Source: Streptomyces adelaidensis (GTDB lineage Bacteria > Actinomycetota > Actinomycetes > Streptomycetales > Streptomycetaceae). Taken from it: DNA of 64,000 nt. The translations under genes were made by a program, and so were the position numbers. Each line of letters opens with the position of its first letter. Positions within the stretch are counted from its first letter, which is position 1. Below, in pieces: positions 20,241 through 37,465 of the stretch. Under the pieces are notes generated by a model. It ran no database searches and had not been told where the DNA came from. It was given only the letters and a program-made list of their open reading frames with translations. The stretch spans positions 1 to 64,000 of the forward strand of contig NZ_JAEMUX010000030.1 in the NCBI RefSeq assembly GCF_016598475.1, read 5' to 3'.

Positions 20241-20241
20241 G

Positions 20242-20454: not shown

Positions 20455-20495
20455 ACGCTAGGATGGGTCGTCTCGTATGTCAACACGCCATCTCG
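20455..20495 (-). promoter_or_regulatory. Flavin-reductase promoter with cluster operator copy 4
   Basis: The clearest example of the site. On the minus strand CGAGATGGC begins the operator and TACGAGA ends it (20471-20495), with the two CGAGA boxes 21 bp apart. Within it lies -35 TTGACA (20478-20483), followed after 17 bp by -10 TAGCGT (20455-20460). A bound protein would cover the -35. Confidence 0.75.
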
Positions 20496-21487: not shown

Positions 21488-21729
21488 CGGGCGGCCGGGC
21501 CGGTTTCAGGCGAGTGAAGCGCGAGCCTGCCGTCCGGCAGGTCGTCGGATATCGGGTTTCGGGAGCGATTCATACGCCACAGCTTCAGGCCCCTTTGCCC
21601 GTATTGTCTAGAGCTGAACCCCATAAGACCTGCCTCGCAGGGAGGGGTGATCACGCCAAGTGCGTGAGCGCGCGCATGGACCGGGCCGGGTGCGCGGCAG
21701 GGCTCGACAGGGCGGCCCGGGGCGTGCGA

Positions 21730-22341
21730 CTAGGCCACGGTGGGCGAGGTGGGCGCACTCGGCGCGCCGGCAGGTCCGGCGACCCAGTACACCGTCCGGT
21801 GCTGCCCGGAGAGCGTGCCGAGGACCTCGAGATCGATCGGCTCCGCGGTCTCGGGGACACTGCCCCGCAGGCGCAGCGCGCCCTGCTGGACCGGCAGGAA
21901 GTCTGTGTTGATCTCCCGGACCAGGGCCGCCGACATCATGTCCGCACGGACGCAGAACGTGTAGTCCTTACGGTCCCGGCTGATCTTGACGCCGAATGTG
22001 CGGAGCGGCAACCGCTCGGGGTCGACACGCTCGTAGTGGACACGGAACTCGGGCGGGGTGGCCGCCAGCTCGGGTTGCAGCACGTACAGGTTCGAGTGCG
22101 CCAGGTGCCGGCAGAACTCGTCCAACTCCCACAGCAGTGTGGGGTGTACGTGCCTGGCGAGGAAGAGGTGATCGCTGCGGATGCCATGCGGAGCGGGAGT
22201 CCAGCGGGCTTGCGCGAGGTGCGAGTCCGGAAGTGCGTCAACTATCTGCCAGAAGGTTCTGAATCGGGGCATGCGCTTCAGATTGCTCTGATTAGAGCGG
22301 TATGTCCAGTACTGGGCCGTCACCGCCGACGGCTCGCACAT
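21730..22341 (-). CDS. Hypothetical protein
   Basis: A protein of up to 203 residues (ATG 22341), or 180 if ATG 22272 is used; neither has a strong ribosome site. No signal peptide or membrane segment is seen. Visible stretches are HVHPTLLWELDEFCRHLAHSN and FGVKISRDRKDYTFCVRADM. I do not recognise the family. It lies between the PnuC and binding-protein genes on the same strand and the frame has normal high third-position GC, so it is probably real. Confidence 0.55.
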   Translation of the reverse strand: MCEPSAVTAQYWTYRSNQSNLKRMPRFRTFWQIVDALPDSHLAQARWTPAPHGIRSDHLFLARHVHPTLLWELDEFCRHLAHSNLYVLQPELAATPPEFRVHYERVDPERLPLRTFGVKISRDRKDYTFCVRADMMSAALVREINTDFLPVQQGALRLRGSVPETAEPIDLEVLGTLSGQHRTVYWVAGPAGAPSAPTSPTVA

Positions 22342-22435
22342 GAAATGCCGCCATGACCCACCTGACGTCCCGATGGTGAAGCGGATGATCGTTCAGTCGG
22401 TCCGTTGCCGCCTTCGGTGGCTCGCTCCCGGGGGA

Positions 22436-23545
22436 CTACTTCTTCAGGCCTGTCGCCGTGCAGTCGGCCGCGAGTCGGGGCGGGCAGATGTCGGACGCTT
22501 TGTACATGCCGTCCCTGATCACCGTGTCCTTGATGTTGTCCTTCGTCAGGGCCTCGACCGACACGAGATGCGCGGGGATGTCCTTGCGGGTGGGGCTGTC
22601 GATCCTGTCGCCTGTGAGGGCGTCGAACTCTATGTCTCTGCCCTGGGCCTTCGCCACGGCCATCGCCGCAGCGTTCTGGGCCTCCTGCGGGTACGGCTTG
22701 TACACGCTCATGTACTGCTCGCCGGTGACGATCCGCCGCACCGCCGAGAGCTCGGCGTCCTGACCGGTGATCGGCGGCAGGTCGGTGACGCCTGCGGCCT
22801 TCAGCGCTCTGATGACGCCGCCCGCCAGGCCGTCGTTGGCGGCGTAGACGGCCTTGATGTTGCTCTTGCCGATTTCACTGATCGCCTCGGTCATGTTCTT
22901 CTCGGCGTTCTGCGGCTTCCAGTCCTTGGTGTCGAACGACTTGGCGATCGTCACCTTGCCCTCTAGCGCGAGGAGCGCGCCCGCCTTGAACTGCTGGGCG
23001 TTCGGGTCGGTGGGCGAGCCGTTCATCATGACGATCTTGTCGTTGACGCCGACGCCCTCGCCGAGGGCCTGAAGCAGGGCGCGGCCCTGCACCTCGCCGA
23101 CGAGTCCGTTGTCGAAGGTGATGTACGCGTCGATCGGGCCCTCGGCCAGACGGTCGTAGGAGATGACCGCGATACCGGCCTTCTTGGCCTCGCTCACCCC
23201 GCCGGCGATGGCGTGCGTGTCGACGGGGTTCAGCAGGATCACGTCGACCCGATCGTTGATCATCTGCTGCAGTTGTCGTGCCTGTTCGCCCGCGTCCGCC
23301 TCGGCGTTGGCGTACTGGACCCGGCCCTGGCCGTGGGTGAGGGACGCGACCTTCGCCTTGATGATCGGGTAGTGGAACTGCTCGTACTGGGGATTCGACT
23401 TTTCGGGCAGCAGCAGCCCCACGGTGATGTCGTCGCCTCTGGTCGGGCTCGCGTCGCCGCTGCTGCCCGTCGCGTTGAGTCCGCCGCAGCCGACGAGCGA
23501 AACAGAGAGCGTTGTGGTGGCTGCGGACATGGCGATACGACGCAT
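22436..23545 (-). CDS. Orphan sugar-type ABC substrate-binding lipoprotein
   Basis: A 369-residue periplasmic-binding-protein fold with signal peptide and lipobox LVGC (Cys20). The body is of the RbsB/XylF type: ITVGLLLPEKSNPQYEQF, INDRVDVILLNPVDTHAI, AVISYDRLAEGP, VYAANDGLAGGVIRALK. The family binds pentoses and other small polar solutes. No permease or ATPase lies next to it, so it is an orphan that must use a remote transporter or serve in sensing. Two cluster operators lie in the upstream spacer, tying it to the catabolic regulon. Confidence 0.88.
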   Translation of the reverse strand: MRRIAMSAATTTLSVSLVGCGGLNATGSSGDASPTRGDDITVGLLLPEKSNPQYEQFHYPIIKAKVASLTHGQGRVQYANAEADAGEQARQLQQMINDRVDVILLNPVDTHAIAGGVSEAKKAGIAVISYDRLAEGPIDAYITFDNGLVGEVQGRALLQALGEGVGVNDKIVMMNGSPTDPNAQQFKAGALLALEGKVTIAKSFDTKDWKPQNAEKNMTEAISEIGKSNIKAVYAANDGLAGGVIRALKAAGVTDLPPITGQDAELSAVRRIVTGEQYMSVYKPYPQEAQNAAAMAVAKAQGRDIEFDALTGDRIDSPTRKDIPAHLVSVEALTKDNIKDTVIRDGMYKASDICPPRLAADCTATGLKK

Positions 23546-23644
23546 CGGGAGCTCACTTCAGGCGCGATCCGGACGTGGGCGCCGCGTTGCGGCCCACCTG
23601 ACTGAAAAGCCGACACGGAGGTGCCCTCGGCGTCGAGCGGGACT

Positions 23645-23673
23645 ACTGTACGAGATGAGAGATGCCATCTTGA
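23645..23673 (-). promoter_or_regulatory. Cluster operator copy 5 with binding-protein promoter
   Basis: The minus strand of 23648-23672 has CAAGATGGC (first box changed by one base); CGTAC stands where the second box should be, 21 bp on. A -10 TACAGT (23645-23650) with a weak -35 TCAAGA (23668-23673) 17 bp before it would drive the binding-protein gene, so the operator fills the promoter. Confidence 0.5.
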
Positions 23674-23768
23674 AATATGTCTACCCGATGTGGTTCCCGG
23701 ACTGCGCCTGACTACCTGTCAGCTCATGTCCGGGCGGGGTGGCGGCCTACCCGCATCCCGCACATTCG

Positions 23769-23793
23769 TATCGCTTGACACGATGCCATCTCG
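23769..23793. promoter_or_regulatory. Cluster operator copy 6 (FAH operon)
   Basis: The minus strand reads CGAGATGGC with CGATA 21 bp on. The plus strand carries TTGACA at 23775-23780 inside the site, a likely -35 for the FAH operon that starts at 23812; no good -10 is seen. If used, the transcript would be nearly leaderless. Confidence 0.6.
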
Positions 23794-23811
23794 CATTGAA
23801 AGATGCCCGCC

Positions 23812-24672
23812 ATGCGAGTAGTGACGACGGACGCCGGCCTGGGCCGGATCGAGGACGGGGGTGTGGCCTTGCTGAACACTGCTTTTCCGCACGTCGGCGC
23901 GGTCCTCGAACAGGAGGGTTCGCTGCGGTGCCTGGCGTCGTGCGCGGTGCGCCGACGCATCCCGCTCGAAGAGGCCACGCTCGTGGCGCCACTGGGCCGC
24001 CCCCGCGCGGTGTGGGGCGTCGGGCTCAACTACGTGTCGAAGGCGGCCCGCACCGGACGCGGGCTGCCCGAGCAGCCGATCCTCTACCTGGCCGCGTCGT
24101 CCGGCGTGTCGGCACCCGGCGCGCGGGTGGTGATCCCGCAGTCCGCGACCGAACCCGACTACGAGGGCGAGATCGCGGTGGTCGTCGGGCGCCGGCTGTA
24201 CAGGGCTACCGAATCCGAGGTCTGGCCCGCGATCGCGGGTGTCACCGCGGCCAACGACATGACGGCACGCGACATCATGCGCGCCACAGGCACCCCCGCC
24301 CTCGCCAAGAGCCACCCGGGCTTCACGCCGCTCGGCCCGTCGGTCCGCACTCCCGAGGATTTCACCGACCGTGACGCGATCCGTGTACGGACCCGGGTCA
24401 ACGGCGAGCTCGTGCAGGACGACACGAGCGACGGGATGATCTTCCCGGTTCCCGATCTGCTCAGCAGGCTGTCGTGGTTCACCGCGCTCGAACCCGGCGA
24501 CGTCGTCCTCACCGGAACCCCGGCCGGCACCGGGCAGGACCGCGCGTGCTTCCTCGCCGACGGCGACGAGGTACGCGTCGAGGTGGACGGCGTGCTGCCC
24601 CTCGTCACCCGCATCGTGCGTCCCCCGGACGCCTCACAGCACGACCACCGGCTGACTCAACCGGTCAGCTGA
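23812..24672 (+). CDS. Fumarylacetoacetate-hydrolase-family enzyme
   Basis: A 286-residue FAH-fold enzyme with the metal-binding core EPDYEGEIAVVVG, the block GVTAANDMTARDIM and the late GDVVLTGTPAGTGQ. Relatives hydrolyse or isomerise ring-cleavage products (2-hydroxyhepta-2,4-diene-1,7-dioate isomerase, fumarylpyruvate hydrolase, 2-keto-4-pentenoate hydratase). ATG 23812 is preferred because it leaves the expected short N-terminus; ATG 23803 is possible. It heads a four-gene operon with an amidohydrolase, an HpcH aldolase and a cupin. It probably handles the product of the extradiol dioxygenase. Confidence 0.85.
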   Translation: MRVVTTDAGLGRIEDGGVALLNTAFPHVGAVLEQEGSLRCLASCAVRRRIPLEEATLVAPLGRPRAVWGVGLNYVSKAARTGRGLPEQPILYLAASSGVSAPGARVVIPQSATEPDYEGEIAVVVGRRLYRATESEVWPAIAGVTAANDMTARDIMRATGTPALAKSHPGFTPLGPSVRTPEDFTDRDAIRVRTRVNGELVQDDTSDGMIFPVPDLLSRLSWFTALEPGDVVLTGTPAGTGQDRACFLADGDEVRVEVDGVLPLVTRIVRPPDASQHDHRLTQPVS

Positions 24673-24699
24673 CCGTTCCCCACCCTGGAGCACACTTCG

Positions 24700-25863
24700 A
24701 TGTCCATCTCCTCCTTGTCGTCGTACGACCTCGTCCTGGCCGGCGGCACCGTCATCGACCCGGCGTCGGACACCCACGCCCGGCTCGACGTGGCGGTCAC
24801 CGGTGACCGCATCGCCGCTATCGGGGAGGGCCTGTCAGAGAACGCGGCTCGCACGATCGACGTCACCGGCTCCACCGTGCTGCCGGGCCTCGTCGAGGGC
24901 CACACCCACATCTTCCAGTACGTCTCCGCCGTCGGAGCACCTGCCGAGGAAGCCCATCTGCGTCGCGGCGTGGTCGCCGCGGCGGATGCCGGCACGGCCG
25001 GCGCCTCGACGTTCGCGGCCTTCCGCAAGCTTGTGGTCGAGGCCAACCCGCTGCGCATCGTCAACTTCCTCAACGTCTCGGTGCTCGGCCTGATCGACTT
25101 CAGGTTCGGCGAGCTGCTCAACCCCGACACCCTGGTCCCCGAGGACGCGCTCGCGACCGCCGAGGCCCACCCCGACATCGTGCGCGGCTTCAAGATCCGT
25201 CTCTCCGAGGACGTCGTCGGCGAGAACTGGGAGTCGTTGCTGAAGAAGTCCGTGGCGCTGGCCGAACAGGCCCGTCTCCCGCTGATGGTGCACATCGGCG
25301 AGACCGAGGAGCCGGTCCCCGTCGTCCTCGACTACCTGCGCCCCGGCGACATCGTGGCGCACTGCTACACCGGCAAGCCGAACGGCATCCTCGACGGCGA
25401 CCAGGTGCACCCCGCGGTCATGGCGGCCCGCGAGCGCGGCGTGCTGTTCGACTCCGCCCACGGCAAGAGCAATCTCAGCTTCGAGGTGGCACGCAGGGCG
25501 ATCGCCGACGGATTCCTGCCCGACGTCCTCAGCTCCGACACCAGCGCCCGTAACTGGCGCGGCCCGGTGTTCGACCTGCTCACCAGCATCTCCAAGCTGG
25601 TCGCGCTGGGCGCGCCGCTTCAGGAGTGCGTCCGTCGGGCCACCGTGGCGCCGGCCCAGCTGCTCGGGCTCGACGCCGAGGGCTACGGGCGCATGGAGGT
25701 CGGCGGGCGGGCCGACGTCACGGTCGTCGACTGGACCGACGAGGTCACCCTGCCCGACGCCGCCGGCAACACGATCGTCGCGCCGCGTCTGGAGCCGACC
25801 GTGGTGCTGCACGGCGGCAAGGAGGTCGACATCGTGCCGTGGCGGGGTCTGAAGTCGGCGTGA
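24700..25863 (+). CDS. Amidohydrolase/deacetylase-family metallohydrolase
   Basis: A 387-residue amidohydrolase-superfamily enzyme: DLVLAGGTVIDPASDTHARL start, GLVEGHTHIFQY with HxH metal ligands, RGFKIRLSEDVVG with a lysine placed to be carboxylated, MVHIGETEE and DIVAHCYTG histidines, and LSSDTSARN with the late aspartate. The layout matches the deacetylase/dihydroorotase-like group. The reaction could be hydrolysis of a cyclic amide or N-acyl group. It sits between the FAH and aldolase genes and is probably part of the same degradation route, hinting that the substrate contains an amide. Confidence 0.82.
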   Translation: MSISSLSSYDLVLAGGTVIDPASDTHARLDVAVTGDRIAAIGEGLSENAARTIDVTGSTVLPGLVEGHTHIFQYVSAVGAPAEEAHLRRGVVAAADAGTAGASTFAAFRKLVVEANPLRIVNFLNVSVLGLIDFRFGELLNPDTLVPEDALATAEAHPDIVRGFKIRLSEDVVGENWESLLKKSVALAEQARLPLMVHIGETEEPVPVVLDYLRPGDIVAHCYTGKPNGILDGDQVHPAVMAARERGVLFDSAHGKSNLSFEVARRAIADGFLPDVLSSDTSARNWRGPVFDLLTSISKLVALGAPLQECVRRATVAPAQLLGLDAEGYGRMEVGGRADVTVVDWTDEVTLPDAAGNTIVAPRLEPTVVLHGGKEVDIVPWRGLKSA

Positions 25864-25890
25864 CACGCCCGCACATCCCAGGAGGACTCC

Positions 25891-26664
25891 ATGAGTGTCG
25901 GTGACGTCCATCTGCTGCGGCGCCGGCTGCGCCTGGCCCTGACGGCGGGGCGACCCGCCGTCGGCACGTTCGTCAAGCTGGCCTCGCCCGACGTGGTGGA
26001 ACTCGCGGAGGCGGCCGGGTTCGCGTTCGTGGTCGTCGACCTCGAACACTCCACCCTCACCGAGCGAGACGCCGTCGACCTGGTGCGCCACGCCGACGCG
26101 TGCGGGCTGCCGGCTCTGGTCCGCGTGCCCGAGGTGAACGCCGCCACGGTCAACCGGCTCCTGGAGGCCGGGGCTGCGGGAATCCAGCTGTCCATGCTCA
26201 CCCGCCTCGCCCAGGCCGAGGCGCTCCTGGCCGCGACCCGGTTCGCTCCGACCGGCAGCCGGTCCGTGAGCCTGGCCAACAGGGCCGCCCGGTTCGGCGC
26301 GGCCCCGCTGGCCGGGTTCCTGCGCACCGAGCAGGACGACCCGCCGGTGCTGGTGGGCCAGATCGAGACCGCACGGACGGATCCGCTGCCGGAACTGGTC
26401 GCCGCCCTCGACGTGTGCTTCATCGGCAGCACCGACCTCGCGGTCGACCTCGGCCTGCCGGCGGACCCGGCGGTGCTGGGCGCCGCGGTGGACCGGGTGA
26501 GGGACGCCGCCCGCTGCGCCGGGGTGGCGTTCGGCGGCTGGGCGCCGAGCCTGAAAGTCGCGTCGGACCTGGGACTCGGTGACGCCGACTACCTGGTCGT
26601 CGGATCGGACCTGCAGATGTTGGCGGCCGGCCTGCGGGCGGCCGCCGGAGAGGAGAATCAGTGA
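25891..26664 (+). CDS. HpcH/HpaI-family aldolase
   Basis: A 257-residue class II aldolase-like protein: GTFVKLASPDVVELAEAAGF, FVVVDLEHSTLTERDAVDLV, PALVRVPEVN, AGIQLSMLTRLAQAEAL, VGQIETARTDPLPEL and CFIGSTDLAVDLGL. The metal-binding Glu/Asp in IETA and GSTDL are present. Such enzymes split 4-hydroxy-2-oxo acids into pyruvate and an aldehyde at the end of meta-cleavage pathways. Lies 27 bp after the amidohydrolase and overlaps the cupin by GTGA. Fits as the terminal aldolase for the ring-cleavage product. Confidence 0.87.
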   Translation: MSVGDVHLLRRRLRLALTAGRPAVGTFVKLASPDVVELAEAAGFAFVVVDLEHSTLTERDAVDLVRHADACGLPALVRVPEVNAATVNRLLEAGAAGIQLSMLTRLAQAEALLAATRFAPTGSRSVSLANRAARFGAAPLAGFLRTEQDDPPVLVGQIETARTDPLPELVAALDVCFIGSTDLAVDLGLPADPAVLGAAVDRVRDAARCAGVAFGGWAPSLKVASDLGLGDADYLVVGSDLQMLAAGLRAAAGEENQ

Positions 26665-27017
26665 GCACACGCAACGCGGCCCTGTTCCACACCGTCGTCA
26701 ACTGGGACGAGATGCCGGTGACCCAGGTACGGCCGGGCGTCCGCCGCCGCGTCTACGCGACGGACGAGGTGATGATCTGCCACCACGAGCTCGAGATCGG
26801 CATGACACTGAACCCGCACCGGCACGACGACTTCGACCAGTTGGTCCAGATCGCCGAGGGACGCGCGAACTACTACGTGGACGGTGTCGCCCACGACATG
26901 CGTGCCGGATCCTTCCTGCTGGTTCCCCGTGGCAGCGAGCACTACGTGGAGCCGACAGAGGCACCCTGCGTGAACATCGACTTCTTCGTTCCGCCGCGGG
27001 CCGACCTGCTTCCCTGA
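26661..27017 (+). CDS. Small cupin-domain protein
   Basis: A 118-residue single cupin. The metal-site histidines appear in LNPHRHDDFDQLVQI, and the second motif in GSFLLVPRGSEHYVEP. It overlaps the aldolase by GTGA and closes the operon before a bidirectional terminator. Small cupins in catabolic operons may be isomerases, dioxygenases or regulators; function here is not known. Confidence 0.75.
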   Translation: MSTRNAALFHTVVNWDEMPVTQVRPGVRRRVYATDEVMICHHELEIGMTLNPHRHDDFDQLVQIAEGRANYYVDGVAHDMRAGSFLLVPRGSEHYVEPTEAPCVNIDFFVPPRADLLP

Positions 27018-27096
27018 GCGGCGGACGGGCGCGCTGGAGGCATGCGCGTCCGCCACTCACGTGACGGAACGACCCGCTCGCGTGCAAGAACGAAAG

Positions 27097-27124
27097 AGGG
27101 CCCACCGCCTCAGCGGTGGGCCCT
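27097..27124. terminator. Bidirectional terminator between cupin and IclR genes
   Basis: Perfect 12-bp arms AGGGCCCACCGC (27097-27108) and GCGGTGGGCCCT (27113-27124) around a four-base loop, midway between convergent genes. Short A-rich and T-containing flanks on both sides. Confidence 0.75.
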
Positions 27125-27144
27125 TAGGTGTTGCCGCAGCCAGG

Positions 27145-27942
27145 TCAGCCGCCGTTGGGCGCGCCCTCGGAGGTGCCCAGCCGCTGCGACAACGCGCGGG
27201 CGGTCTCCAGCAGTGCCTGGGCCATCGTTGACTCGACGTCGTCCGAGACGGTCGCCGTCGTGCCGACGATCGCAAGCGTTCCGCTGATCTTGTCGCCCTC
27301 GAAGATCGGCGCCGCGACGGTGCGGACCCCGTTGACGGTGGGCGAGTTGACGGACAGACCGTACTGCCGGATCGCTTCGAGTTCCTCGGTGAGCTCGGCC
27401 GACTTGCGGACCGCGCGCGGCAGCGTCGGTACCTGCTCCGGCGGCAGGAAAGCGAGGAAGACGCGGCCCTGCGCCGAGGCCGTGAGGTTCAGGCGCGAGC
27501 CGACCCGGACGCTGATGCGCACCATGTGATCGGTGTTGTCCACCGAGCGCACCACGGTCGCCGACTCGCCGTCCCAGACCGACAGCACGATCGTCTCGTC
27601 GATGCGCCTGACCAGCTCCTCCATGTACGGCTCGGCGGCGGCGACGATCGGCAGGCCGGCCCGCGCGGCGGTGGCGAGTGTGAGTACCTGCGGGCCGAGG
27701 GAGTACAGCGAGGTGCGCTCGTCGTACCGCAGCAGGTTCGCCGCCCGCAGCGCCTTCGTGTAGCGGTGCGCGGTCGCCTTGCTTGCCCCGAGACGCGCGG
27801 TGATCTCGTTGAGACTCATGTGCGGCTTGCCCACCGTGAACGAGCCGAGAATGAGAGCCGCCCGCTGCACCGTCTGGATGGTCGGTGCGGTCCTGTCCGG
27901 GCCGTCCTGCTCACCGGTGCCGGGCTGCGCCTTCGTGGGCAT
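27145..27942 (-). CDS. IclR-family transcriptional regulator
   Basis: A 265-residue regulator. The N-terminal winged helix (TIQTVQRAALILGSF, MSLNEITARLGASKATAHRYT) and the C-terminal effector domain (LPIVAAAEPYMEELVRRIDE, GRVFLAFLPPEQ, VNGVRTVAAPIFEGD) are both complete. ATG 27942 with AGGAGCGAGG upstream gives the normal length. IclR proteins commonly control aromatic catabolism (PcaR, PobR, PcaU) and some bind direct repeats. It lies in the middle of the cluster and is the leading candidate to bind the nine recurrent operators, though its own promoter region lacks one. Confidence 0.9.
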   Translation of the reverse strand: MPTKAQPGTGEQDGPDRTAPTIQTVQRAALILGSFTVGKPHMSLNEITARLGASKATAHRYTKALRAANLLRYDERTSLYSLGPQVLTLATAARAGLPIVAAAEPYMEELVRRIDETIVLSVWDGESATVVRSVDNTDHMVRISVRVGSRLNLTASAQGRVFLAFLPPEQVPTLPRAVRKSAELTEELEAIRQYGLSVNSPTVNGVRTVAAPIFEGDKISGTLAIVGTTATVSDDVESTMAQALLETARALSQRLGTSEGAPNGG

Positions 27943-27976
27943 GAATCCTCGCTCCTGTCTGTGCGCCGTCAAAGTG

Positions 27977-28011
27977 ATAAGGCAGTAGATGAAACGCCGT
28001 ATCGAATAAGG
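27977..28011. promoter_or_regulatory. Direct repeats upstream of the IclR gene
   Basis: Two copies of ATAAGG (27977-27982 and 28006-28011), 29 bp apart, lie in the unusually AT-rich spacer before the regulator. They differ from the cluster operator and may serve autoregulation or another factor. No confident -35/-10 pair. Confidence 0.3.
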
Positions 28012-28146
28012 TAATGGTAAAGGGGAGGGTGACGGGGCGTGAAGGGGGTCGGGACCCTCATCCACGGTCACCGGACCGGCACCGGGCGGTCACGGTCGGC
28101 AGCCGCGGAAGGGCCTGCGTCGACCGCGTCGCCCCGTGCGTGGGCC

Positions 28147-29145
28147 TCACGCATCCGAGGAGTGCCCCGGCGTTGTCGAGCATGTCGGGTCCAGCAGGGC
28201 GGCGATGTGGTTGACGGCCAGGGCCGCCTCGCCGAAGCCGATGGAGATGAGGCTCACCTTGCCGTCATGGTCGGCGATGTCGCCGGCCGCGAAGACGCGC
28301 TCCCGGTTCGTGCGCATCGTGCGGTCGACGAGGATACGCCGACGCCGCAGCTCAAGTCCCCACCGCTCGATCGGGCCGAGATCGGCGATGAAACCGAGCG
28401 CGGCCACGACGGTCTGGGCGGGCAGGGTGACCCGGTCGCCGTCGGAGCACGCGACCACGACCTCCGACACGGCCCCCTCGCCGGAGACCTTCTCGACCTC
28501 GTACGGCGTCAACACCCGCACCGAGGACGCGTGCACCTGCTCGACACTGCGCTCGTGGGCCCGGAACCGCGCGCGCCGGTGCACCAGCGTCACCGACGAG
28601 GCGATCGGCTCCAGCGACAGCGCCCAGTCCAGCGCGGAGTCCCCGCCGCCGACCACCACGACGTCCTGTCCGGCGAGCTCGTTCAACCGGGGTACGAAAT
28701 ACCGCAGCCCCCGGTCCAGGTACTCGGAGCCCACCGGGAGCTCGCGGGGGATGAAGTTGCCGATCCCGCCGCAGACGAGCACCGCGCCCGCGGTGATCCG
28801 CGCGCCGGCGTCGGTGGTGGCGACGATGCCCCCGCCCGCGTCGTCCAGCTGGGTGACCCCGTGCCCGAGCAGATAGGTGGGGTTCCACCGCCAGGCCTGC
28901 TCGGCCAGCCGGTCCACCAGGTCCTGCCCACGGACGGCGGGAAAGCCGGCCACGTCGTAGATGAACTTCTCGGGGTACAGCGCGGCGATCTGGCCGCCCA
29001 CCTCGGGCAGAGCGTCGACGACCGCCACGCTCAATCCCCGGAAGCCGGCGTAGTACGCGCCGTACAACCCGGTCGGGCCGGCGCCGATGATGAGCAGGTC
29101 GACGGAGACCTCGGGGCAGGCGCCCCCGGGCGCGTGGCCGGTCAC
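28147..29145 (-). CDS. Ferredoxin-NAD(P)+ reductase, thioredoxin-reductase-like fold
   Basis: A 332-residue FAD/NAD(P)H protein: [17 protein letters not shown] for [20 protein letters not shown] for the pyridine nucleotide and [20 protein letters not shown] near the end. There is no CxxC redox pair, so it is of the YumC/TrxR-like FNR type rather than a thioredoxin reductase. It starts at GTG 29145, overlapping the ferredoxin stop by GTGA. Its partner is the ferredoxin, and together they probably carry electrons to the divergent Rieske oxygenase, which otherwise lacks a reductase. Confidence 0.87.
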
Positions 29146-29456
29146 GCGCCCACCTCCGGGTGGTCGTGGCCGGCCTGGCCGACCTTGCGGGCGCCGCCGG
29201 GCGATCCCAGCGGTTGGGTGCCGAGGGTGAAGAACTCGGCGTTGATGCGCTCGAAGTGCTTGCTCTCCTCCGGCAGGTCCTCGTGGTGGAAGATCGAGAT
29301 CTGCGGACAGACGGGTTCACAGCGCCCGCACTCGACACATTCGTCGGGCTGGATGTAGAGCATCCGGTCGCCCTCGTAGATGCAGTCGGCCGGGCACTCC
29401 TCCATGCATGACTTGTCCATGATGTCGACGCAGGCCTGAGTGATGACGTACGGCAC
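29142..29456 (-). CDS. Ferredoxin, FdxA-like 7Fe-8S type
   Basis: A 104-residue ferredoxin. The cysteines in [17 protein letters not shown] and [12 protein letters not shown] fit a 3Fe-4S plus 4Fe-4S pair as in FdxA of actinobacteria. GTG 29456 gives the family start [11 protein letters not shown]; the upstream ATG 29489 would fall in the operator and adds an atypical N-terminus. Transcribed with the reductase, divergently from the Rieske genes. It probably shuttles electrons to the Rieske oxygenase. Confidence 0.87.
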
Positions 29457-29490
29457 GAGCTTGTTGCCCTTCACACGGTCGCACAGCATG

Positions 29491-29515
29491 CGAGACGGTG
29501 TATTTCAATGTGGAA
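29491..29515 (+). promoter_or_regulatory. Cluster operator copy 7 (ferredoxin side)
   Basis: Plus strand CGAGACGGT with TGGAA 21 bp on, lying right at the 5' end of the ferredoxin gene. The second box is weak; the first box and position match the other copies. Confidence 0.5.
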
Positions 29516-29603
29516 CAGGATGATGGCGCCGTCGGGGCAAGGTGTCAACCGTGAGGTGAATGCTTGACACCGCCGGATTGACGGGGGACGCTAATGCGAC
29601 ATA

Positions 29604-29628
29604 CGAGATGGCGTCTCACGGCACGCCA
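29604..29628 (+). promoter_or_regulatory. Cluster operator copy 8 (Rieske side)
   Basis: Plus strand CGAGATGGC with CGCCA 21 bp on; it also forms GAGA-TGGCG-TCTC. Just upstream lie TTGACA (29564-29569) and TTGACG (29578-29583); the latter with ATACGA (29601-29606) at 17 bp is a possible promoter overlapping the site, about 55 bp before the Rieske start. Confidence 0.55.
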
Positions 29629-29661
29629 CTCGGGTCGGGACTTGTGAGAGGCACACTCCCC

Positions 29662-31014
29662 ATGGGAAGCAACCCCCGGACCGTCCCAGCGCCGATGATC
29701 GTCGAGGACTGGGACCAGCTCACCTTCCGGGTCAACCGCGAGGCCTACCGAAGCGCGGAAATCTTCGCCCGGGAACGCGGCTGGGTGTGGATGCACACCT
29801 GGCTCTACCTCGGGCACGAGACCGAGATCCCCAACCCCAACGACTTCAAGGTGCGCACCCTCGGCGGCAGGCCGCTGATCTTCTGCCGGGACAGCGCCGG
29901 CGAAGTGCACGCGTTCCTGAACTCCTGTCCGCACCGCGGCACCGTGCTGTGCCGCGAAAGCGAGGGTTCGACCAGGCTCTTCCAGTGCTTCTACCACGCC
30001 TGGACGTTCCGCAACAACGGCGAGGTCGCCGCGATCCCCGATGCCGGGGCATACGAATCGAGCGACGAGTTCCGGGAGTCGATGGGGCTGCGCGGCGTGC
30101 CGCGCCTGGAGATCCACGAGGGATTCGTCTTCGTCTCCTTCGACCCCGACGTGCCGCCGCTGCTGGAGTACCTCGGCGACGCGGCCGACTACATGACCAT
30201 GATCCAGCAGCAGCACGTCGGCGGCATGACCACGCTGCCCGGCACACAGCTCTACAGCGTGCGGGGCAACTGGAAACTCGCCGTCGAGAACGCCATGGAC
30301 GGCTACCACTTCGCGCCGACGCACAACACGTTCGTGGGGTACCTGCGAGAGAGCGGCTACGCCGTCACCGACGACAACCAGTACGCGTACAACCTCGGCA
30401 ACGGCCACGGGCTGCTGGTCCTGACCGGGCACGGCGGACGCATCAGCATGATCTGGGAACCGCGCTTCGGCGAGGACGAACGGATCCGCACCGAGGCCCA
30501 CCGGGCCGAGATGACCCAGCGGCTGGGGGAGGAGCGGGCGCACCACGTGGCCGACGAGAGCCACATCCTGTTCGTGTTCCCCAACCTGCTGCTGTTCGAC
30601 ATCGAGGGTCTGTCGATCCGGCAGCTGGAGCCGGTGGCGCCCGACCAGACCGACGTGCGTGCCTGGCAACTGGTCCCGCGCGCCGAGGACCCGGACACGC
30701 GCGCCCTGCGGATGAGGACGGTCGTCAGCTTCGTCGGCCCGGGCGGACTCGCGACGCCGGACGACATCGAGGCGTACGAGGCGGTGCAGCGCGGCATCCA
30801 GGCCACGGCGGGCGCCGGCGCGCCCGAGCTGGACTACAGCGACATGTCGCGCGGCATGGCCGACGAGGCCAGGGGGGTGCAGGGCCGATCGATCGACGAG
30901 GGCGCGATGCGTGGCTTCTGGCGGCAATGGGTCGAGGCCACCGGGCTCGACGACGGCCTCGAGATCCACGGCGAGCGACCGGCGTCCTTCCTGGCGGGAA
31001 GGGACGTGCGATGA
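29662..31014 (+). CDS. Rieske ring-hydroxylating oxygenase, alpha subunit
   Basis: A 450-residue catalytic subunit. The Rieske ligands are in NSCPHRG (Cys89, His91) and CFYHAWTF (Cys109, His112). The mononuclear iron site is in NAMDGYHFAPTH (bridging Asp213, His216, His221). The sequence is of the aromatic-acid/p-cumate/phthalate-like group with a separate beta subunit; the natural substrate cannot be fixed. ATG 29662 has GAGAGG upstream and removes an atypical leader from the longer frame. It overlaps the beta subunit by ATGA. With the ferredoxin and reductase opposite, it would make a cis-dihydrodiol from the aromatic acid. Confidence 0.93.
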   Translation: MGSNPRTVPAPMIVEDWDQLTFRVNREAYRSAEIFARERGWVWMHTWLYLGHETEIPNPNDFKVRTLGGRPLIFCRDSAGEVHAFLNSCPHRGTVLCRESEGSTRLFQCFYHAWTFRNNGEVAAIPDAGAYESSDEFRESMGLRGVPRLEIHEGFVFVSFDPDVPPLLEYLGDAADYMTMIQQQHVGGMTTLPGTQLYSVRGNWKLAVENAMDGYHFAPTHNTFVGYLRESGYAVTDDNQYAYNLGNGHGLLVLTGHGGRISMIWEPRFGEDERIRTEAHRAEMTQRLGEERAHHVADESHILFVFPNLLLFDIEGLSIRQLEPVAPDQTDVRAWQLVPRAEDPDTRALRMRTVVSFVGPGGLATPDDIEAYEAVQRGIQATAGAGAPELDYSDMSRGMADEARGVQGRSIDEGAMRGFWRQWVEATGLDDGLEIHGERPASFLAGRDVR

Positions 31015-31535
31015 CAACGAACAGCAACCGCGGCCTGGTGCGATGCGGGGGACGCACCGTCACCCGGCCGGAGGTGGAGGACTTCCTCTACACCGAGGCG
31101 GACATCCTCGACCACTGGGACTACGACAGCTGGCTGGCCCTCTTCGAGGACGGCGCCCGCTACGAGATCCCGACCACCGACTACCGCCCCGGCTGGTCCC
31201 CGCACGAGACCGGATCGTTCGTCGACGACGACTGGGACCTGCTCCGGGCCAGGGTCAAGCGCCTGAAGTCCCGCAAGGCGCACGCCGAGAACCCGCACTC
31301 GCGCACGCATCGGCTGGTGTCCAACGTGCGGCTGTCCGAGGAGTCGGAGGACTCCTTCCGGGTGGCGGCGGCGTTCGTCGTGCACCGCGCCCGCGACGGG
31401 CGCTTCGACGCCTACGTCGGGTGGTACGACCATGTGCTGGTGCCGACCGAGGACGGATTCCGCTTCCGGTTGCGGCGCTCGATCCTCGGCCACGAGTCGC
31501 TGGCGGCAGGCGCCCGGCTGAGCTTCATCCTCTGA
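31011..31535 (+). CDS. Rieske oxygenase, beta subunit
   Basis: A 174-residue protein of the small-subunit family (SnoaL-like fold): FLYTEADILDHWDYDSWLAL, ARYEIPTTDYRPG, KAHAENPHSRTHRLVSNV and the end GFRFRLRRSILGHE. It overlaps the alpha gene by ATGA and is 21 bp before the extradiol dioxygenase gene. It would form the structural half of the oxygenase hexamer. Confidence 0.92.
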   Translation: MTTNSNRGLVRCGGRTVTRPEVEDFLYTEADILDHWDYDSWLALFEDGARYEIPTTDYRPGWSPHETGSFVDDDWDLLRARVKRLKSRKAHAENPHSRTHRLVSNVRLSEESEDSFRVAAAFVVHRARDGRFDAYVGWYDHVLVPTEDGFRFRLRRSILGHESLAAGARLSFIL

Positions 31536-31556
31536 CCGGCGACGGAAGGCGATCCG

Positions 31557-32768
31557 ATGATCCGACACACCCTGTCCTTCCGTTTCGCCGACGGAGTGGA
31601 CGAGGCCACACGGGAGTCCGTGCTGGCCGAGCTGCGTACCTTTCCGGACCGGTACCCGGCCATGCGCGGCTTCGTCCTCGGCGAGAACATCAGCACCCGC
31701 GACCAGACATTCACCCACACCTTGGCCGTCGACTTCGAGAGTCAGGACGACCTGCTCGCCTATCTCGGCAGCGAGTCCCACGAGAGCTTCGTGCGCTCGC
31801 GCTGGCGGCCGGTCATCGCCCAACAGGCCATCACCTCGTTCGAGTTCGCCGAGCGTCCCTCGCTCACGGCAGGAAGGACACCGCCGGTGAGCACCCGCCC
31901 GCACGGCCCGTACGGCATGGAGTACGCCCGGATCGAAGTTCCGGACATGCAGGCAACGATCGACTTCCTCGAGTACCACGTCGGGCTGCAGCTGGAGCGG
32001 CACACGGACGAGTACGCCTACCTGCGCGCCGACATCGAGCACCACGCGATCGAACTGATCCACGCCCCCGAGCGCACCGACGGGTGGACGACCGCGGTCG
32101 GCTACAGCGTCGAGAGCGAGGAGGTCCTCGAACAGCTGCACAAGAGCGTGCTCGACGCCGGACTCGAGGTGCTCGAACTGCAGGAGCGGCAGAAGGCGCT
32201 GTGCGACAACGGCTTCGCGGTGAAGGATCCCGACGGCCTCATCGTCGAGCTGTTCACGGAGTTCCAGGAGTACGCCGAGCCGCCGCACGTCGAGATCCGG
32301 CCGCTCGACCTGGTGCACCCCTTCATCGCCACCGCGAAGTTCGAGGAGTCGGTGGACTTCTACCAGAACGTCCTGCGGTTCCGGCCCTCGGACCACGTCG
32401 TCGGCTCGACCACGTTCTTCCGCTGTGAGGACCGCTACCACCACAGCCTCGCCATCCAGAAGAACACCGAACACTATGTCGCGCACCTGTGCTTCGCGAT
32501 GAAGAGCCTCGACCACGTCATGCGGATGCGCGCCCGCGCGCTGTACAAGGGCGCGCCGATCGCCTCCGACATCGTCAACCACTCGGCGTCGACGTCGATC
32601 GCGTTCTACATGCACGACACCCGCTTCGGGCCGCGGTACGAACTGTGCGACCGGCACCGGGTGTTCACGCCGGAGGAGCACGAGACGCACCGGCCCCGCA
32701 GGATGCCGGCCGACCCGCGCAACATCGACGTGTGGCGTCCGGCTGCCGACGACTGGGGACGCTTTTGA
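31557..32768 (+). CDS. Dabb-domain/type I extradiol dioxygenase fusion
   Basis: A 403-residue two-part protein. Residues 1-97 form a Dabb (stress-responsive A/B barrel) domain (RHTLSFRFADGVDE, FTHTLAVDFESQDDLLAYL). From about residue 115 two VOC repeats make a type I extradiol dioxygenase with iron ligands at His254 (LVHPFI), His310 (VAHLCF) and Glu362 (RYELCD), spacing as in BphC-like enzymes. An in-frame GTG at 31887 preceded by AGGAAGG could start the dioxygenase part separately. It lies in the Rieske operon and would cleave the catechol made from the dihydrodiol. The fusion is unusual. Confidence 0.87.
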   Translation: MIRHTLSFRFADGVDEATRESVLAELRTFPDRYPAMRGFVLGENISTRDQTFTHTLAVDFESQDDLLAYLGSESHESFVRSRWRPVIAQQAITSFEFAERPSLTAGRTPPVSTRPHGPYGMEYARIEVPDMQATIDFLEYHVGLQLERHTDEYAYLRADIEHHAIELIHAPERTDGWTTAVGYSVESEEVLEQLHKSVLDAGLEVLELQERQKALCDNGFAVKDPDGLIVELFTEFQEYAEPPHVEIRPLDLVHPFIATAKFEESVDFYQNVLRFRPSDHVVGSTTFFRCEDRYHHSLAIQKNTEHYVAHLCFAMKSLDHVMRMRARALYKGAPIASDIVNHSASTSIAFYMHDTRFGPRYELCDRHRVFTPEEHETHRPRRMPADPRNIDVWRPAADDWGRF

Positions 32769-33925
32769 GACAGCAGTTGCTCGACGTCCTGCACCTGCTC
32801 GACGCGCTCCCCGCCCCACGCGGCGGGGAGCGCACGGCGGCCCACCGGTTGCGCGCCTGGTGCGCCGATCGGTGGCCGCACGTCGAGTGGCAGGTGCTGG
32901 AGCACGGCTCCGCGGGCGGCAGCCTGGTCGCCACCCGCGGATCCGGGCCGCTGCTCTACTCCCACCTCGACACCTCGCTGGACGAGGGAGGTGCGGCCAA
33001 CCGGCTCGTCACCGGTGACGACGCGCCCGTCGGTCCGCTCACCGTGGACGGCGACACGGTGAGCGGCTTCGGTCTCGGGGTCGCCCGCGGGCCCGCGGCC
33101 GCCGCGCTGGTCGCCTTCGCCGAGGCAGGTGCCGGGCGGCTCCTGCTCGCGGGCTCCGGGACGCACCGCCGCACGAGCGCGATCACCGGTCTGGAGGCGT
33201 ACACCGACGCCTACCCGCTGCCACCCTCGGCGATCGTGGCCAAGTGCGGCCCGCCGACGGTGCTGTGGCACGAGCCCGGCGCGTTCTACCTGACCGTCCG
33301 GGTGACCGGACGCTCCGGGGCCGCGATGGTGGCGGAATCCGCCACGCCACCCGGGGGAGTCGTCGCTCAGGCCGGCATCGTCCTGGACGAACTGGCACGC
33401 TGGCGCACGGCCTACCTGGCCGCCGATCCCCGGGTGGGGCAGACCGGCCGGGCGTGCGGTATCGGAGCGATCAGCGGGGGATGGCCGGACAAGCCGGACC
33501 TGCTGCCGGCTCGACTGCGGATCGATCTGTACGTCGTCGTCGGTGACCAGGTGGAGCCGAAGGCGCTGGCGGCCGAGCTGACCGACCGGCTGCGGGCGCG
33601 GTGCGCGGCGTCGGTACTGCGTGATTGCAACATCGAGGTGGAGGCCGAGCCGGTCGCGTCCGCCGCGGCCACGCCGGCCGACGCCCCGGTGGTGACGGCC
33701 GTCCGAGCGGTGTGGCTCGACGAGTTCGGTACACAGCCGCCGCCGATCACCGGATGGACCGGCTCGACCGACGGCGTCGCCCTGCGCGCTCGCGGCGTCG
33801 ACACCGTCCGCCTCGGCCCGCGGGCGAGGCCGGCCACCGACGAACCGCGTCGCGACGCCATGTCGTTGACGGAGCTGACCGCCTTCGCGCGCATGTACCG
33901 AAGGCTCTTGACCGAACCGGGCTAG
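32765..33925 (+). CDS. M20-peptidase-like protein lacking catalytic residues
   Basis: A 386-residue protein starting at TTG 32765, overlapping the dioxygenase stop by TTGA. The ArgE/DapE-type M20 layout is visible: LLYSHLDTSLDEG carries the HxD metal motif, the lid domain follows (YLTVRVTGRSGAAM, LDELARWRTAYL) and the end has GSTDGVALRARGVDTVRLGP. The usual second metal aspartate and the catalytic Glu-Glu pair are not found (GFGLGVARGPAAAAL, LLLAGSGTHRRTSA instead), nor is the lid histidine. It may be a non-peptidase hydrolase, a binding protein or inactive. Co-expression with the ring-cleavage enzyme suggests a pathway role. Confidence 0.7.
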   Translation: MRQQLLDVLHLLDALPAPRGGERTAAHRLRAWCADRWPHVEWQVLEHGSAGGSLVATRGSGPLLYSHLDTSLDEGGAANRLVTGDDAPVGPLTVDGDTVSGFGLGVARGPAAAALVAFAEAGAGRLLLAGSGTHRRTSAITGLEAYTDAYPLPPSAIVAKCGPPTVLWHEPGAFYLTVRVTGRSGAAMVAESATPPGGVVAQAGIVLDELARWRTAYLAADPRVGQTGRACGIGAISGGWPDKPDLLPARLRIDLYVVVGDQVEPKALAAELTDRLRARCAASVLRDCNIEVEAEPVASAAATPADAPVVTAVRAVWLDEFGTQPPPITGWTGSTDGVALRARGVDTVRLGPRARPATDEPRRDAMSLTELTAFARMYRRLLTEPG

Positions 33926-34252
33926 CCCGGCCGGTCGCCGACGGCGGACCGGTCGGGCAGCACGACGGCGGACCGGGCCCCGCCCGGGCCAGAAGTGCCG
34001 GCGTTCTCCTGCGAAGGCCGACCGCTGATGCGGGCGCCGCCGAGACGAGTGCCTGCTCGACCGCGGGCCGGACGTCGTGGGTCCCGGTCGTGGTGCCCCT
34101 CCATCCCCGTGCGCCCGGCCCCGTCAGCGAGGCGAGCGACGTCGAGACGGCCGAGCGGCCTCAAGACATCAGAGCCACTGGTGAACTCGAGTTCGCCAGG
34201 GCGCGACCTCATACGTAGGGCACGGATGCCCTGAAAGGAAGTGGACGGGACG
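33926..34252. promoter_or_regulatory. Spacer before the CoA-transferase genes
   Basis: No gene is seen. GAACTCGAGTTC (34183-34194), a perfect 12-bp palindrome, lies about 60 bp before pcaI and could be an operator. CGAGACGGC at 34143 resembles the first box of the cluster operator but lacks a good second box. No terminator hairpin for the Rieske operon was recognised. Confidence 0.3.
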
Positions 34253-35028
34253 ATGGACAAAGTCATCGCCTCAGCCCCCGAAGCCGTGGCGGACGTCCCT
34301 GACGGGGCCTCCCTGACAGTCGGCGGCTTTGGTTTGAGCGGGGTCCCGGACATCTTGATCCAGGCCCTGTACGACACCGGTGTGACAGGACTGGACGTGT
34401 TCTCGAACAACTGCGGCGCCCTGGACTCCGGCCTCGCCGTGCTCCTCGCCGCAGGCCGGATCGCGCGGGTGACCGGCAGCTATATCGGCGGCAACCAGGA
34501 GTTCGCCCGTCAGTACCTGGGCGGCGAGATCGAGCTGGAGCTGATCCCCCAGGGCACGCTCGCCGAGCGACTGCGGGCCGGGGGCTGCGGCATACCGGCC
34601 TTCTACACCCCGGCCGGCGTCGGCACCCTGGTCGCCGACGGCGGCCTGCCGTGGCGGTACGACGGTGACGGCGGCATCGCCGTCGCCTCACCGCCCAAGG
34701 AGGTCCGCGAGTTCGCGGGCGGTGACTACGTCCTGGAGCGCGGGATCACCACCGACTTCGCCCTGGTACGGGCGGCGAAGGGGGACCGCTACGGCAACCT
34801 GGTGTTCAGCAAGTCCGCCCGCAACTTCAACCCGCTGGCGGCCATGGCCGGCCGCATCACGATCGCCGAGGTCGAGGAGCTGGTCGAGCCGGGCGGCATC
34901 GACCCGGACCAGGTCCATCTGCCGGGCATCTTCGTGCAGCGAGTGGTGGCCCTCAGCCCCGACCAGGCCGCCGACAAGAAGATCGAGAAGCTGACAGCCA
35001 TCCCCAGGGACCGGGAGGTGCGGGCCTG

Positions 35029-35029
<1 letters not shown>
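34253..35029 (+). CDS. pcaI: 3-oxoadipate CoA-transferase, alpha subunit
   Basis: A 258-residue CoA-transferase A subunit: [55 protein letters not shown] and the [18 protein letters not shown] block. With PcaJ it moves CoA from succinyl-CoA to 3-oxoadipate in the beta-ketoadipate pathway; a succinyl-CoA:3-ketoacid transferase is the alternative. The ATG at 34253 is better spaced from AAAGGAA than GTG 34241. It overlaps pcaJ by one base. The partner pathway gene pcaL lies 2.7 kb downstream beyond a TauD gene and gene relics. Confidence 0.85.
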
Positions 35030-35685
<656 letters not shown>

Positions 35686-36038: not shown

Positions 36039-37112
36039 TCACACTCCCCAGTCGTCGTTGACGGTGACCGCGTCGGCGATACGGAACCGGCCGCCAGGCA
36101 CCAGCGGCGTCGTGGGCTCACCCAACTCGACGACGTGCTTGCCGAACTTGGGAGCCAGCGGGCGGCCGACGTCCCGCTTGAGCCACAGACGCAGCAGATG
36201 CCGACGACGCTCAGGCTCCGGGTGGTCGACGTAACTGGTGCGTGAGTGCAGCGCGGCGTAGTTGAGCAGCCACTGCACGTCCCCCGGCTGGAAATCCATG
36301 TCGATCGGCAGGCCCGGCTCCTGCGAGATCTCGTCGAAGAGGTTGATGGCCGCGACCTGGTCGGGCGTCAGTTGCGGGACACCGGGGTACTCCTGGGCGC
36401 TGAAGATCATCGAGTTGCCCGCGTAGGTGCTGAAGACTCCGTCGACGTAGCCGATGATCGGCGAGGTGTACGTCAGTTCCGGAGAGTCGGGGTCCTGACG
36501 CCGCCAGTCCCAGTGGTACGTGTCGAAGAGCCGAGGAGCGAGGTCCGGCCGGCGGCGCAGCATCTCGTTGTAGATCGTGGTGCCGCTGACCAGGCTGGAG
36601 GCTCCACCCTCCTTGGCGCCGCGCAGGCACATGAGGGCGACGACGTCGGAGCTGTCCGAGTGGAACGGCAGCCGGTCCCGTACGCGGGAGGGCAGAGCCC
36701 CCTCGTCGGACAACGTCTTGTTGGAGGTGGCGATCACGTGGTCGAGCAGGTCCCCCCGCTGGTTCTGCCCGATCGGCTGGCCCAGGTGCAGTCCCATGAC
36801 GAAGAAGACGGCGGCGGCCATGGCGTCGCCGTACTCCTCGGTGCGCAGGCCGCGCACCAGGACGAAGCCGCGTCCGGCGTCCATCTGGGCTGCGCACTCC
36901 TCGTTGAGTGCGCAGCAGGCGTCGAACGGGTAGTCGGCGGCGGTGACGGTGCGCAGGTCGGGGTTCTCGGCGACGAAGCGCCGTCCCAGCGCCTCCAGCT
37001 CAGCGCGCTCGGCGTCGCTGAGCACGTAGATCCATGCGGTGGACCTCGACAACTCCTCGCCGCGCCAGGCGGACGGCCCGGAGATCGGCTGAAGGCCGAC
37101 AGTGGTGGTCAT
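36039..37112 (-). CDS. TauD/TfdA-family Fe(II)/2-oxoglutarate dioxygenase
   Basis: A 357-residue oxygenase. The iron ligands are His151 and Asp153 in FHSDSSD and His289 in ALHSRTSY; an arginine in RRRHLLRLWL would bind 2-oxoglutarate. The middle block GQPIGQNQRGDLLDHVIATSN is typical of the larger TauD/TfdA relatives. The family hydroxylates small acids, amino acids or aryloxy compounds. ATG 37112 with GAGGAG upstream. It is the second gene on a transcript led by a 46-residue peptide and an operator-linked promoter, so it belongs to the cluster regulon. Substrate unknown. Confidence 0.88.
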   Translation of the reverse strand: MTTTVGLQPISGPSAWRGEELSRSTAWIYVLSDAERAELEALGRRFVAENPDLRTVTAADYPFDACCALNEECAAQMDAGRGFVLVRGLRTEEYGDAMAAAVFFVMGLHLGQPIGQNQRGDLLDHVIATSNKTLSDEGALPSRVRDRLPFHSDSSDVVALMCLRGAKEGGASSLVSGTTIYNEMLRRRPDLAPRLFDTYHWDWRRQDPDSPELTYTSPIIGYVDGVFSTYAGNSMIFSAQEYPGVPQLTPDQVAAINLFDEISQEPGLPIDMDFQPGDVQWLLNYAALHSRTSYVDHPEPERRRHLLRLWLKRDVGRPLAPKFGKHVVELGEPTTPLVPGGRFRIADAVTVNDDWGV

Positions 37113-37226
37113 GATGGTGCGCTCCTCGAAAATGCGGTGAAAGCCCGTGGGCGAAGACCCGACGGACGACGAAGCTCTCGGTGCGGCGGGTGTTCGTCGC
37201 TCGGCGACGAACGGCACTCGGAACAC

Positions 37227-37367
37227 TCAGAACGGGGTCTGAGGCTCGCCGGCGGCCGTACCGGGGCGCAGTCCTTCCCGTGGCGGGAAGTAGCTGAGCG
37301 GCTCGTCATAGGTTCGGCGGCCAGCGCACGACACGAGCAGAACGCCGATCAGGGCGACTGTCTCCAT
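37227..37367 (-). CDS. Small 46-residue protein encoded ahead of the TauD-like gene
   Basis: The frame begins at ATG 37367, ten bases after AAAGGA and about 24 bases after the predicted transcription start, and ends at TGA 37227. The product starts METVALIGVLLVSCAG, a hydrophobic stretch with a lipobox-like SCAG, then RRTYDEPLSYFPP and a Pro/Gly-rich tail ending QTPF. The signals for its expression are better than for many annotated genes here. It could be a tiny membrane or lipoprotein, a modified peptide whose maturation involves the TauD enzyme, or a regulatory leader. No family recognised. Confidence 0.5.
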   Translation of the reverse strand: METVALIGVLLVSCAGRRTYDEPLSYFPPREGLRPGTAAGEPQTPF

Positions 37368-37397
37368 GCTGGTTCCGTCCTTTCGAGAAGTGCCTCA

Positions 37398-37465
37398 ACC
37401 GTAGGTGAGAGCAGAATGCGAGTCAATAGGCGTGACGATGTCTCGTATTGCAGTACACGCGCGTC
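37398..37465 (-). promoter_or_regulatory. TauD-unit promoter with cluster operator copy 9
   Basis: Minus strand -35 TTGACT (37421-37426), 17-bp spacer, -10 TACGGT (37398-37403). Upstream at 37441-37465 the operator's second half (GCAATACGAGA) is well kept, nearly identical to that of copy 1, while the first half is poor. Here the site sits just upstream of the -35 rather than over it. Confidence 0.6.

Follow-up and report, generated by a model that had tools for sequence, protein, structure and literature searches.

The 46-codon frame at 37367–37227 on the minus strand of the window (the whole 64,000-nucleotide stretch of Streptomyces adelaidensis DNA that was analyzed) is, judging from comparison with homologous loci, a real gene, and the peptides that it represents form a well-supported new leader-peptide family. 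We lean towards the reading that the frame is a cis-acting regulatory leader of the transcript of a TauD-like oxygenase, stalling the ribosome at its own stop codon in a TnaC-like manner. A cis-acting leader fits because the peptide is tied in cis to a single gene and has a variable N-terminus, with constraint at its strongest up to the stop codon.

Position and signals of the leader frame

The leader region and the gene that follows it contain these elements:

37227..37367, minus strand: leader peptide gene, 46 aa (METVALIGVLLVSCAGRRTYDEPLSYFPPREGLRPGTAAGEPQTPF), stop codon TGA; a related frame lies 5' of 46 of 47 close TauD homologues
37378..37384, minus strand: Shine-Dalgarno GAAAGGA of the leader peptide
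37398..37403, minus strand: -10-like element TACGGT, a 3/6 match to TATAAT, missed by the consensus scan
37421..37426, minus strand: -35 element TTGACT
36039..37112, minus strand: TauD/TfdA-family 2-oxoglutarate dioxygenase, 357 aa (PF02668, E 4e-28)

The leader ATG is at 37367 and its stop codon at 37229–37227, and the TauD-like gene starts at 37112, 114 nt past the leader stop. AAAGGA, ATG and the 46-codon frame that the initial annotation described are all present; the AAAGGA run, which it set about 24 bases past the -10 element, begins 14 nt past it by coordinates. The promoter that it described, TTGACT and TACGGT separated by a 17-nt spacer, is likewise there, but its description as strong does not hold: a consensus scan of 36900–37600 returned no promoter-like site, and TACGGT agrees with TATAAT at three of six positions, so that support for the promoter comes from conservation and not from consensus. 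The oxygenase scores 99.5 bits against PF02668 (gathering score 27), which places it in the TauD/TfdA family, and its nearest solved sequence is FrbJ (5eqn).

Distribution among TauD homologues

Loci were collected from an oxygenase scan of genome contigs (80 kept of 84), with more added by genome searches, and the 136 loci with a homologue were reduced to 108 by merging those with identical first 250 aligned residues. A related frame lies 5' of the TauD-like gene in 46 of the 108, and these are 46 of the 47 closest homologues (identity at least 71.6%), which argues that the frame is present beyond chance. The carriers belong to Streptomyces, Micromonospora, Actinomadura, Microtetraspora, Streptosporangium, Blastococcus and other genera. 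The sole exception among the 47, a Desertimonas locus (L048, 73% identity), yielded no peptide. Regular expressions for the C-terminal motif, which a strongly diverged peptide could escape, found no peptide upstream of TauD in any of the 61 deduplicated homologues below 70% identity, and none was seen when the ORF lists of 15 peptide-less loci were inspected by eye.

The arrangement is that of a regulatory leader, a short, co-directional ORF upstream, at all 46 peptide loci, with a spacer of 78–243 nt; an extra copy of the peptide on a Streptomyces plasmid has a spacer of 122 nt. The record of this plasmid, the only close one in an annotated plasmid collection, comes with no annotation. An SD-like run of at least four bases precedes an in-frame ATG or GTG at 46/46 loci. 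Leader lengths range from 28 to 55 aa when the start with the best SD is chosen and ties go to the longer frame, the exact starts being uncertain. SD-like runs, tolerance of synonymous change with few replacements, and operator-like palindromes are further grounds for a frame beyond chance.

Among 199 Streptomyces genomes the whole peptide gave a strong match (89–100% identity) in four, its own genome included, and weak matches (E about 0.009) in three more. In phylum samples (396 genomes) a C-terminal query matched only in the two genomes in which the close oxygenase occurs. No second copy was found by motif in the examined loci or in the 396 genomes. One Micromonospora-group genome (G782) has two TauD copies, 76% (L115) and 60% (L118) identical to that of the window, with the peptide detected upstream of L115 alone.

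Selection and conserved residues

The most constrained part of the peptide is its last stretch:

37230..37283, minus strand: final 18 codons before the stop; pN/pS 0.27, 46 loci

Over the 46 loci these codons give 1.94 and 2.21 in the out-of-frame readings, and inside five groups (43 loci) their in-frame pN/pS is 0.06–0.26. At residues -27 to -19 the value is 0.83 for the full set of 46 loci and 0.74 without the Blastococcus group; by group it is 0.42 in Streptomyces, 0.21 in Actinomadura, 0.19 in Micromonospora and 0.60 in the Microtetraspora group. From these group values, the C-terminal contrast is clear between genera and uneven inside them: in the Actinomadura group residues -27 to -19 are constrained as much as the last 18 codons (0.21 and 0.26), and in Streptomyces pN/pS is still 0.32 at -42 to -28.

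In 34 loci aligned from the stop, nine positions are invariant: R-17, R-13, G-11, T-10, A-9, G-7, Q-4, P-2 and F-1. The codons of these residues vary, except that Phe F-1 is TTC in 34/34, and the leader stop codon itself varies between TGA, TAA and TAG. The conserved residues are mixed, with no run of one amino acid. Judged from the aligned sequences, selection is acting on the leader at the protein level. The initial annotation had proposed amino-acid conservation of the peptide beside TauD homologues as a check, and this check, run here, came out in favor of the peptide. As in ribosome-arrest peptides, conserved residues lie near the presumed arrest site and within tunnel length and the N-terminus is variable, a pattern that the Actinomadura and Streptomyces groups show less sharply.

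Structure and composition after the leader stop

Two features lie between the leader stop and the oxygenase gene:

37192..37212, minus strand: hairpin GTTCGTCGC-CGA-GCGACGAAC, shortly 3' of the leader stop codon
37125..37184, minus strand: spacer of rut-like composition, rich in C and poor in G, ahead of the TauD ribosome-binding site

Compared with shuffled sequences, the first 55 nt past the leader stop are on average more strongly folded, with a mean z of -1.70 over 34 loci, and of -1.17 in the 29 loci outside the Blastococcus group; z is below -1 in 23/34 and zero or above in 6/34. The last 55 nt of coding sequence give -0.25, and the rest of the spacer +0.16 (the 26 of 34 loci that are long enough). 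In Streptomyces (12 sequences) 90.7% of the cells in the hairpin are paired, and its covariation score of 0.231 exceeds that of every slid version (maximum 0.106) and of 497/500 shuffles; both partners change in two of its nine pairs, and 264/500 shuffles do at least as well, so that covariation is modest. For the Actinomadura and Micromonospora groups consensus folding gave uneven results, and one Micromonospora alignment (A2), in which two hairpin types are mixed, was left out. At one locus (L026, 4038–4280) a long tandem repeat of GAGCTTCT after the leader stop stretches the spacer to 243 nt.

Between -72 and -12 before TauD the C-G skew is +0.17 at the 46 peptide loci, against 0.00 before 73 other genes and 0.01 before 16 TauD genes that lack the peptide, the control starts being those of a simple ORF caller; the P value of this comparison is overstated because the loci are related. 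The composition suggests a rut-like spacer, which does not prove a rut site. An intrinsic terminator was rejected: the scan of the region gave no terminator-like site, and a run of four T occurs within 70 nt of the leader stop in 1/46 loci (anywhere in the spacer in 9/46), so the structures after the stop differ from standard intrinsic terminators. We also set aside a model in which the TauD ribosome-binding site is masked, its mean unpaired probability being 0.44–0.50 by group, with no clear sequestration. The RNA structure and the C-rich spacer 3' of the stop add to the TnaC-like appearance of the leader.

A catabolic cluster resembling the lumichrome pathway

The window also carries this cluster:

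949..35685, no strand assigned: catabolic cluster resembling the lumichrome (riboflavin) pathway, by Pfam/NCBIfam families and sizes set against the available text of PMC12746152

By Pfam and NCBIfam, the cluster encodes: (i) redox enzymes, namely a P450-Fer2-reductase fusion of 743 aa, ADH, ALDH, a flavin reductase and a pyridine-nucleotide oxidoreductase; (ii) hydrolases, namely an acetamidase-family protein, amidohydrolases and an FAA hydrolase; (iii) a Rieske alpha subunit, an extradiol-type dioxygenase of 403 aa and a 4Fe-4S protein (weak Fer4); (iv) transport proteins, a Bmp binding protein with ABC ATPase and permease, and a PnuC-family transporter; and (v) VOC and SnoaL-like proteins, an HpcH aldolase, a cupin, an IclR regulator and two CoA transferase subunits. 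A Rieske beta-like sequence at about 31011–31535 is similar to a protein of another locus (L021). The NCBIfam matches are below equivalog cut-offs. An M20 hydrolase assignment for the ORF at 32489–33925 was dropped, having no Pfam support.

The lumichrome pathway reconstituted from Nocardioides simplex was published in 2025, and the available text describes a Lum set of an 81 kDa fusion (LumU), LumA-E, LumV, LumW, LumX, LumY and the transport proteins LumOPQR (PMC12746152). Set against these descriptions, the window cluster resembles, by family and size, a lumichrome-type catabolic cluster, of which the window appears to carry a large part; the families compared include ADH and ALDH, hydrolases, an aldolase, a cupin, an FAA hydrolase and a transporter. 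The P450 fusion is like LumU and the Rieske/extradiol set like LumA-E, here in a Streptomyces genome, a genus whose name is absent from the available text of that paper (PMC12746152). No xanthine-oxidase-type LumJ, TPP enzymes LumK/LumL or luciferase-like RcaE candidate was recognized among the window proteins scanned. At 19680–23545 the cluster has genes for a flavin reductase, a sugar-binding protein and a PnuC-family transporter (PF04973), with possible roles in the uptake of riboflavin and the use of ribose.

Clusters of this kind in several actinobacterial groups contain the TauD-like oxygenase again, but it has no step in the available pathway text, where TauD, oxoglutarate and ketoglutarate have no occurrence (PMC12746152). 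By a loose BLAST grouping of neighboring genes, at least two such cluster genes are in reach at 29 of the 34 peptide loci with gene tables, the other five (L026, L034, L036, L039 and L046) having only 1.8–6.4 kb downstream, and at 9 of the 15 peptide-less TauD loci in the same table. The oxygenase thus tends to accompany the pathway, and the peptide would belong to one mode of its control. The idea that the oxygenase generally replaces the P450 was dropped, as the window carries both.

Operator-like sites and a candidate regulator

The palindromic sites and the candidate regulator gene are these:

37431..37445, no strand assigned: palindromic operator-like site CGAGACATCGTCACG, one mismatch, just 5' of the -35 element
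29604..29618, no strand assigned: operator-like site near the start of the Rieske alpha gene
23658..23793, no strand assigned: two operator-like sites (23658–23672 and 23779–23793) between the divergent binding-protein and FAA-hydrolase genes
27145..28071, minus strand: IclR-family regulator (IclR_C and HTH_IclR), a candidate operator-binding protein

CGAGA-N5-TCTCG with at most two mismatches, ending 1–5 nt before TTGAC, is present at 45 of the 46 peptide loci, compared with 3 of 2300 shuffled regions; one peptide locus (L002) has no TTGAC. The homologous loci, with operator and TTGAC, thereby bear out the earlier placement of the peptide gene downstream of an operator-controlled promoter and ahead of the oxygenase gene. 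In the window, a related palindrome with one mismatch gives eight rows, which are six distinct sites, two being read on both strands (37431–37445, 29604–29618, 23658–23672, 23779–23793, 20481–20495 and 1991–2005). This count is weak when taken alone, since 3.57 rows are expected and 5/100 shuffles reach eight. Five of the six sites (20481, 23658, 23779, 29604 and 37431) lie close to the 5' ends of genes in the catabolic cluster. The recurring palindromes may mark one regulon, chance being possible on the count alone, and the regulator of the leader promoter is probably the IclR-family protein of the cluster.

A model for the leader

These sequence features make a nascent-chain attenuator probable. 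We infer that leader and oxygenase share a transcript, and likewise ribosome arrest, antitermination, a role of Rho, the direction of the response and the ligand. The operator-controlled promoter would start the mRNA, and a ribosome would translate the leader and stall at its stop codon; the stalled ribosome would keep the downstream structure from forming and/or block Rho termination in the C-rich spacer, and the oxygenase gene would then be transcribed. The gene context suggests lumichrome, riboflavin or a breakdown product of either as candidate ligand, and because this context resembles the lumichrome pathway, a flavin catabolite is a possible ligand and the first to test. The specific proposal that the leader is a nascent-peptide sensor, in which lumichrome, riboflavin or a quinoxaline intermediate bound in the exit tunnel causes a stall at Pro-Phe-stop and the oxygenase is transcribed, we hold only tentatively and judge unlikely.

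Several observations count against an arrest leader: the C-terminal focus is not uniform (Actinomadura and Streptomyces groups), the stop codon varies, L048 is without the peptide, the post-stop z is zero or above in 6 of the 34 loci, hairpin covariation is modest, and no terminator-like site was found. In most loci the C-rich part also lies beyond the expected cover of a stalled ribosome, which counts against the model.

Comparison with known systems

In the available description of TnaC, the leader of the E. coli tryptophanase operon, a stall at the stop codon blocks a rut site just downstream (PMC8429421). As there, the present leader is a short ORF before a catabolic gene, with the residues that would be functional placed before the stop, a Pro near the end and an untranslated stretch after the stop, which in TnaC is where Rho acts (PMC8429421). 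TnaC ends in Pro-stop and conserves, according to the same source, Trp12, Asp16 and the terminal Pro24, whereas the peptide here combines an RPGTAxG core with Pro-Phe-stop; its stop is followed by a structure-prone stretch, the phylum is another one, and arrest is a prediction. The 34 aligned C-termini end in Pro-Phe with no invariant Trp or Asp, which sets the peptide outside the TnaC family by sequence.

In the ornithine-sensing SpeFL, described in the available text for gamma-proteobacteria, arrest at termination lets a leader sense a small metabolite (PMC8429421), as in the model proposed for the present leader. Candidate cysteine leaders of mycobacterial cys operons are also actinobacterial leader ORFs without conserved terminator hairpins, for which the accessible part of the source suggests Rho (PMC1262725); they carry runs of Cys codons, whereas the residues fixed here are mixed, with no codon run. 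Arrest peptides related to Sec/YidC, with RAPP-like ends, share short Arg/Pro-containing C-terminal motifs in the excerpts available (PMC7897499, PMC10987492, PMC12992588), but these belong to protein localization genes, unlike the catabolic oxygenase here, where the conserved stretch reaches the stop codon. An amino-acid attenuator of the trp, leu or ilv type does not match either: there is no codon run and no terminator-like site, and a T run near the stop occurs in 1/46 loci.

Alternative explanations

Constraint at the protein level, the invariant C-terminal Phe and the exclusive association with a single oxygenase group would also fit a small trans-acting protein. Its conserved C-terminus would bind either the oxygenase, for which it would serve as accessory part, inhibitor or chaperone, or a different protein of the pathway. 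We consider this fairly unlikely, as the peptide was found with none of the 61 oxygenases below 70% identity and not with that of L048, the N-terminus is variable, the peptide is always just upstream in cis with no second copy by motif in the examined loci or the 396 genomes, and signals of structure and composition follow the leader stop codon.

The frame might also act as a uORF through translation alone, by reinitiation, mRNA protection or coupling, with no nascent-chain signal. Leader genes have been proposed, in the available text of PMC4833913, to raise expression via reinitiation, and SD-like runs precede the leader at 46/46 loci and, by eye, most TauD starts; residue-level constraint with free codon choice is unnecessary in such a model, however, and a spacer of 78–243 nt is long for reinitiation, which together render it improbable.

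The initial annotation had raised a modified peptide and its oxygenase, and a RiPP-like product hydroxylated in its conserved C-terminal part would account for that stretch and for the constant 2-oxoglutarate oxygenase neighbor. RiPP precursors have a conserved leader and core with modification and export genes; here no leader region is conserved, the N-terminus being variable, the constraint reaches the stop codon, the window proteins scanned included no recognizable enzyme for peptide modification, maturation protease or peptide exporter, and similar catabolic clusters surround nine of the 15 TauD loci that lack the peptide, all of which leaves this reading very improbable. A small lipoprotein or membrane peptide of the pathway, the other role offered in the initial annotation and suggested by the hydrophobic, lipobox-like start (VSC) that is indeed present in the window peptide (VALIGVLLVSC) and has similar stretches in other Streptomyces peptides, is scarcely credible, because with the variable N-terminus this start is a Streptomyces feature, and Micromonospora, Actinomadura and Blastococcus peptides keep the C-terminus and not the hydrophobic stretch or the cysteine.

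Significance

Returning to the cis-acting leader, a role that the initial annotation did not name, the peptide gave nothing credible against Pfam, NCBIfam, PHROGs and PDB sequences, Rfam gave no match in 36900–37700, and a text search for RPGTAAG found no paper. Literature on leader and arrest peptides (Streptomyces, actinobacteria, TauD, lumichrome and Rho attenuation), covered as open-license titles and the beginnings of abstracts, contained no description of it. To our knowledge, metabolite-sensing nascent peptides are few. TnaC and SpeFL are named as bacterial examples in the available text of PMC8429421.

Conserved across several actinobacterial genera and associated with a single oxygenase and with lumichrome-like clusters, the leader family offers a concrete sequence for toeprinting. 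The common operator-like sites and the IclR gene point to a regulon for a probable vitamin B2 breakdown cluster, and the locus points to a 2-oxoglutarate oxygenase unmentioned in the available text of the published pathway. If true, a flavin-sensor leader would control an oxygenase that belongs to an actinobacterial regulon for vitamin B2 catabolism.
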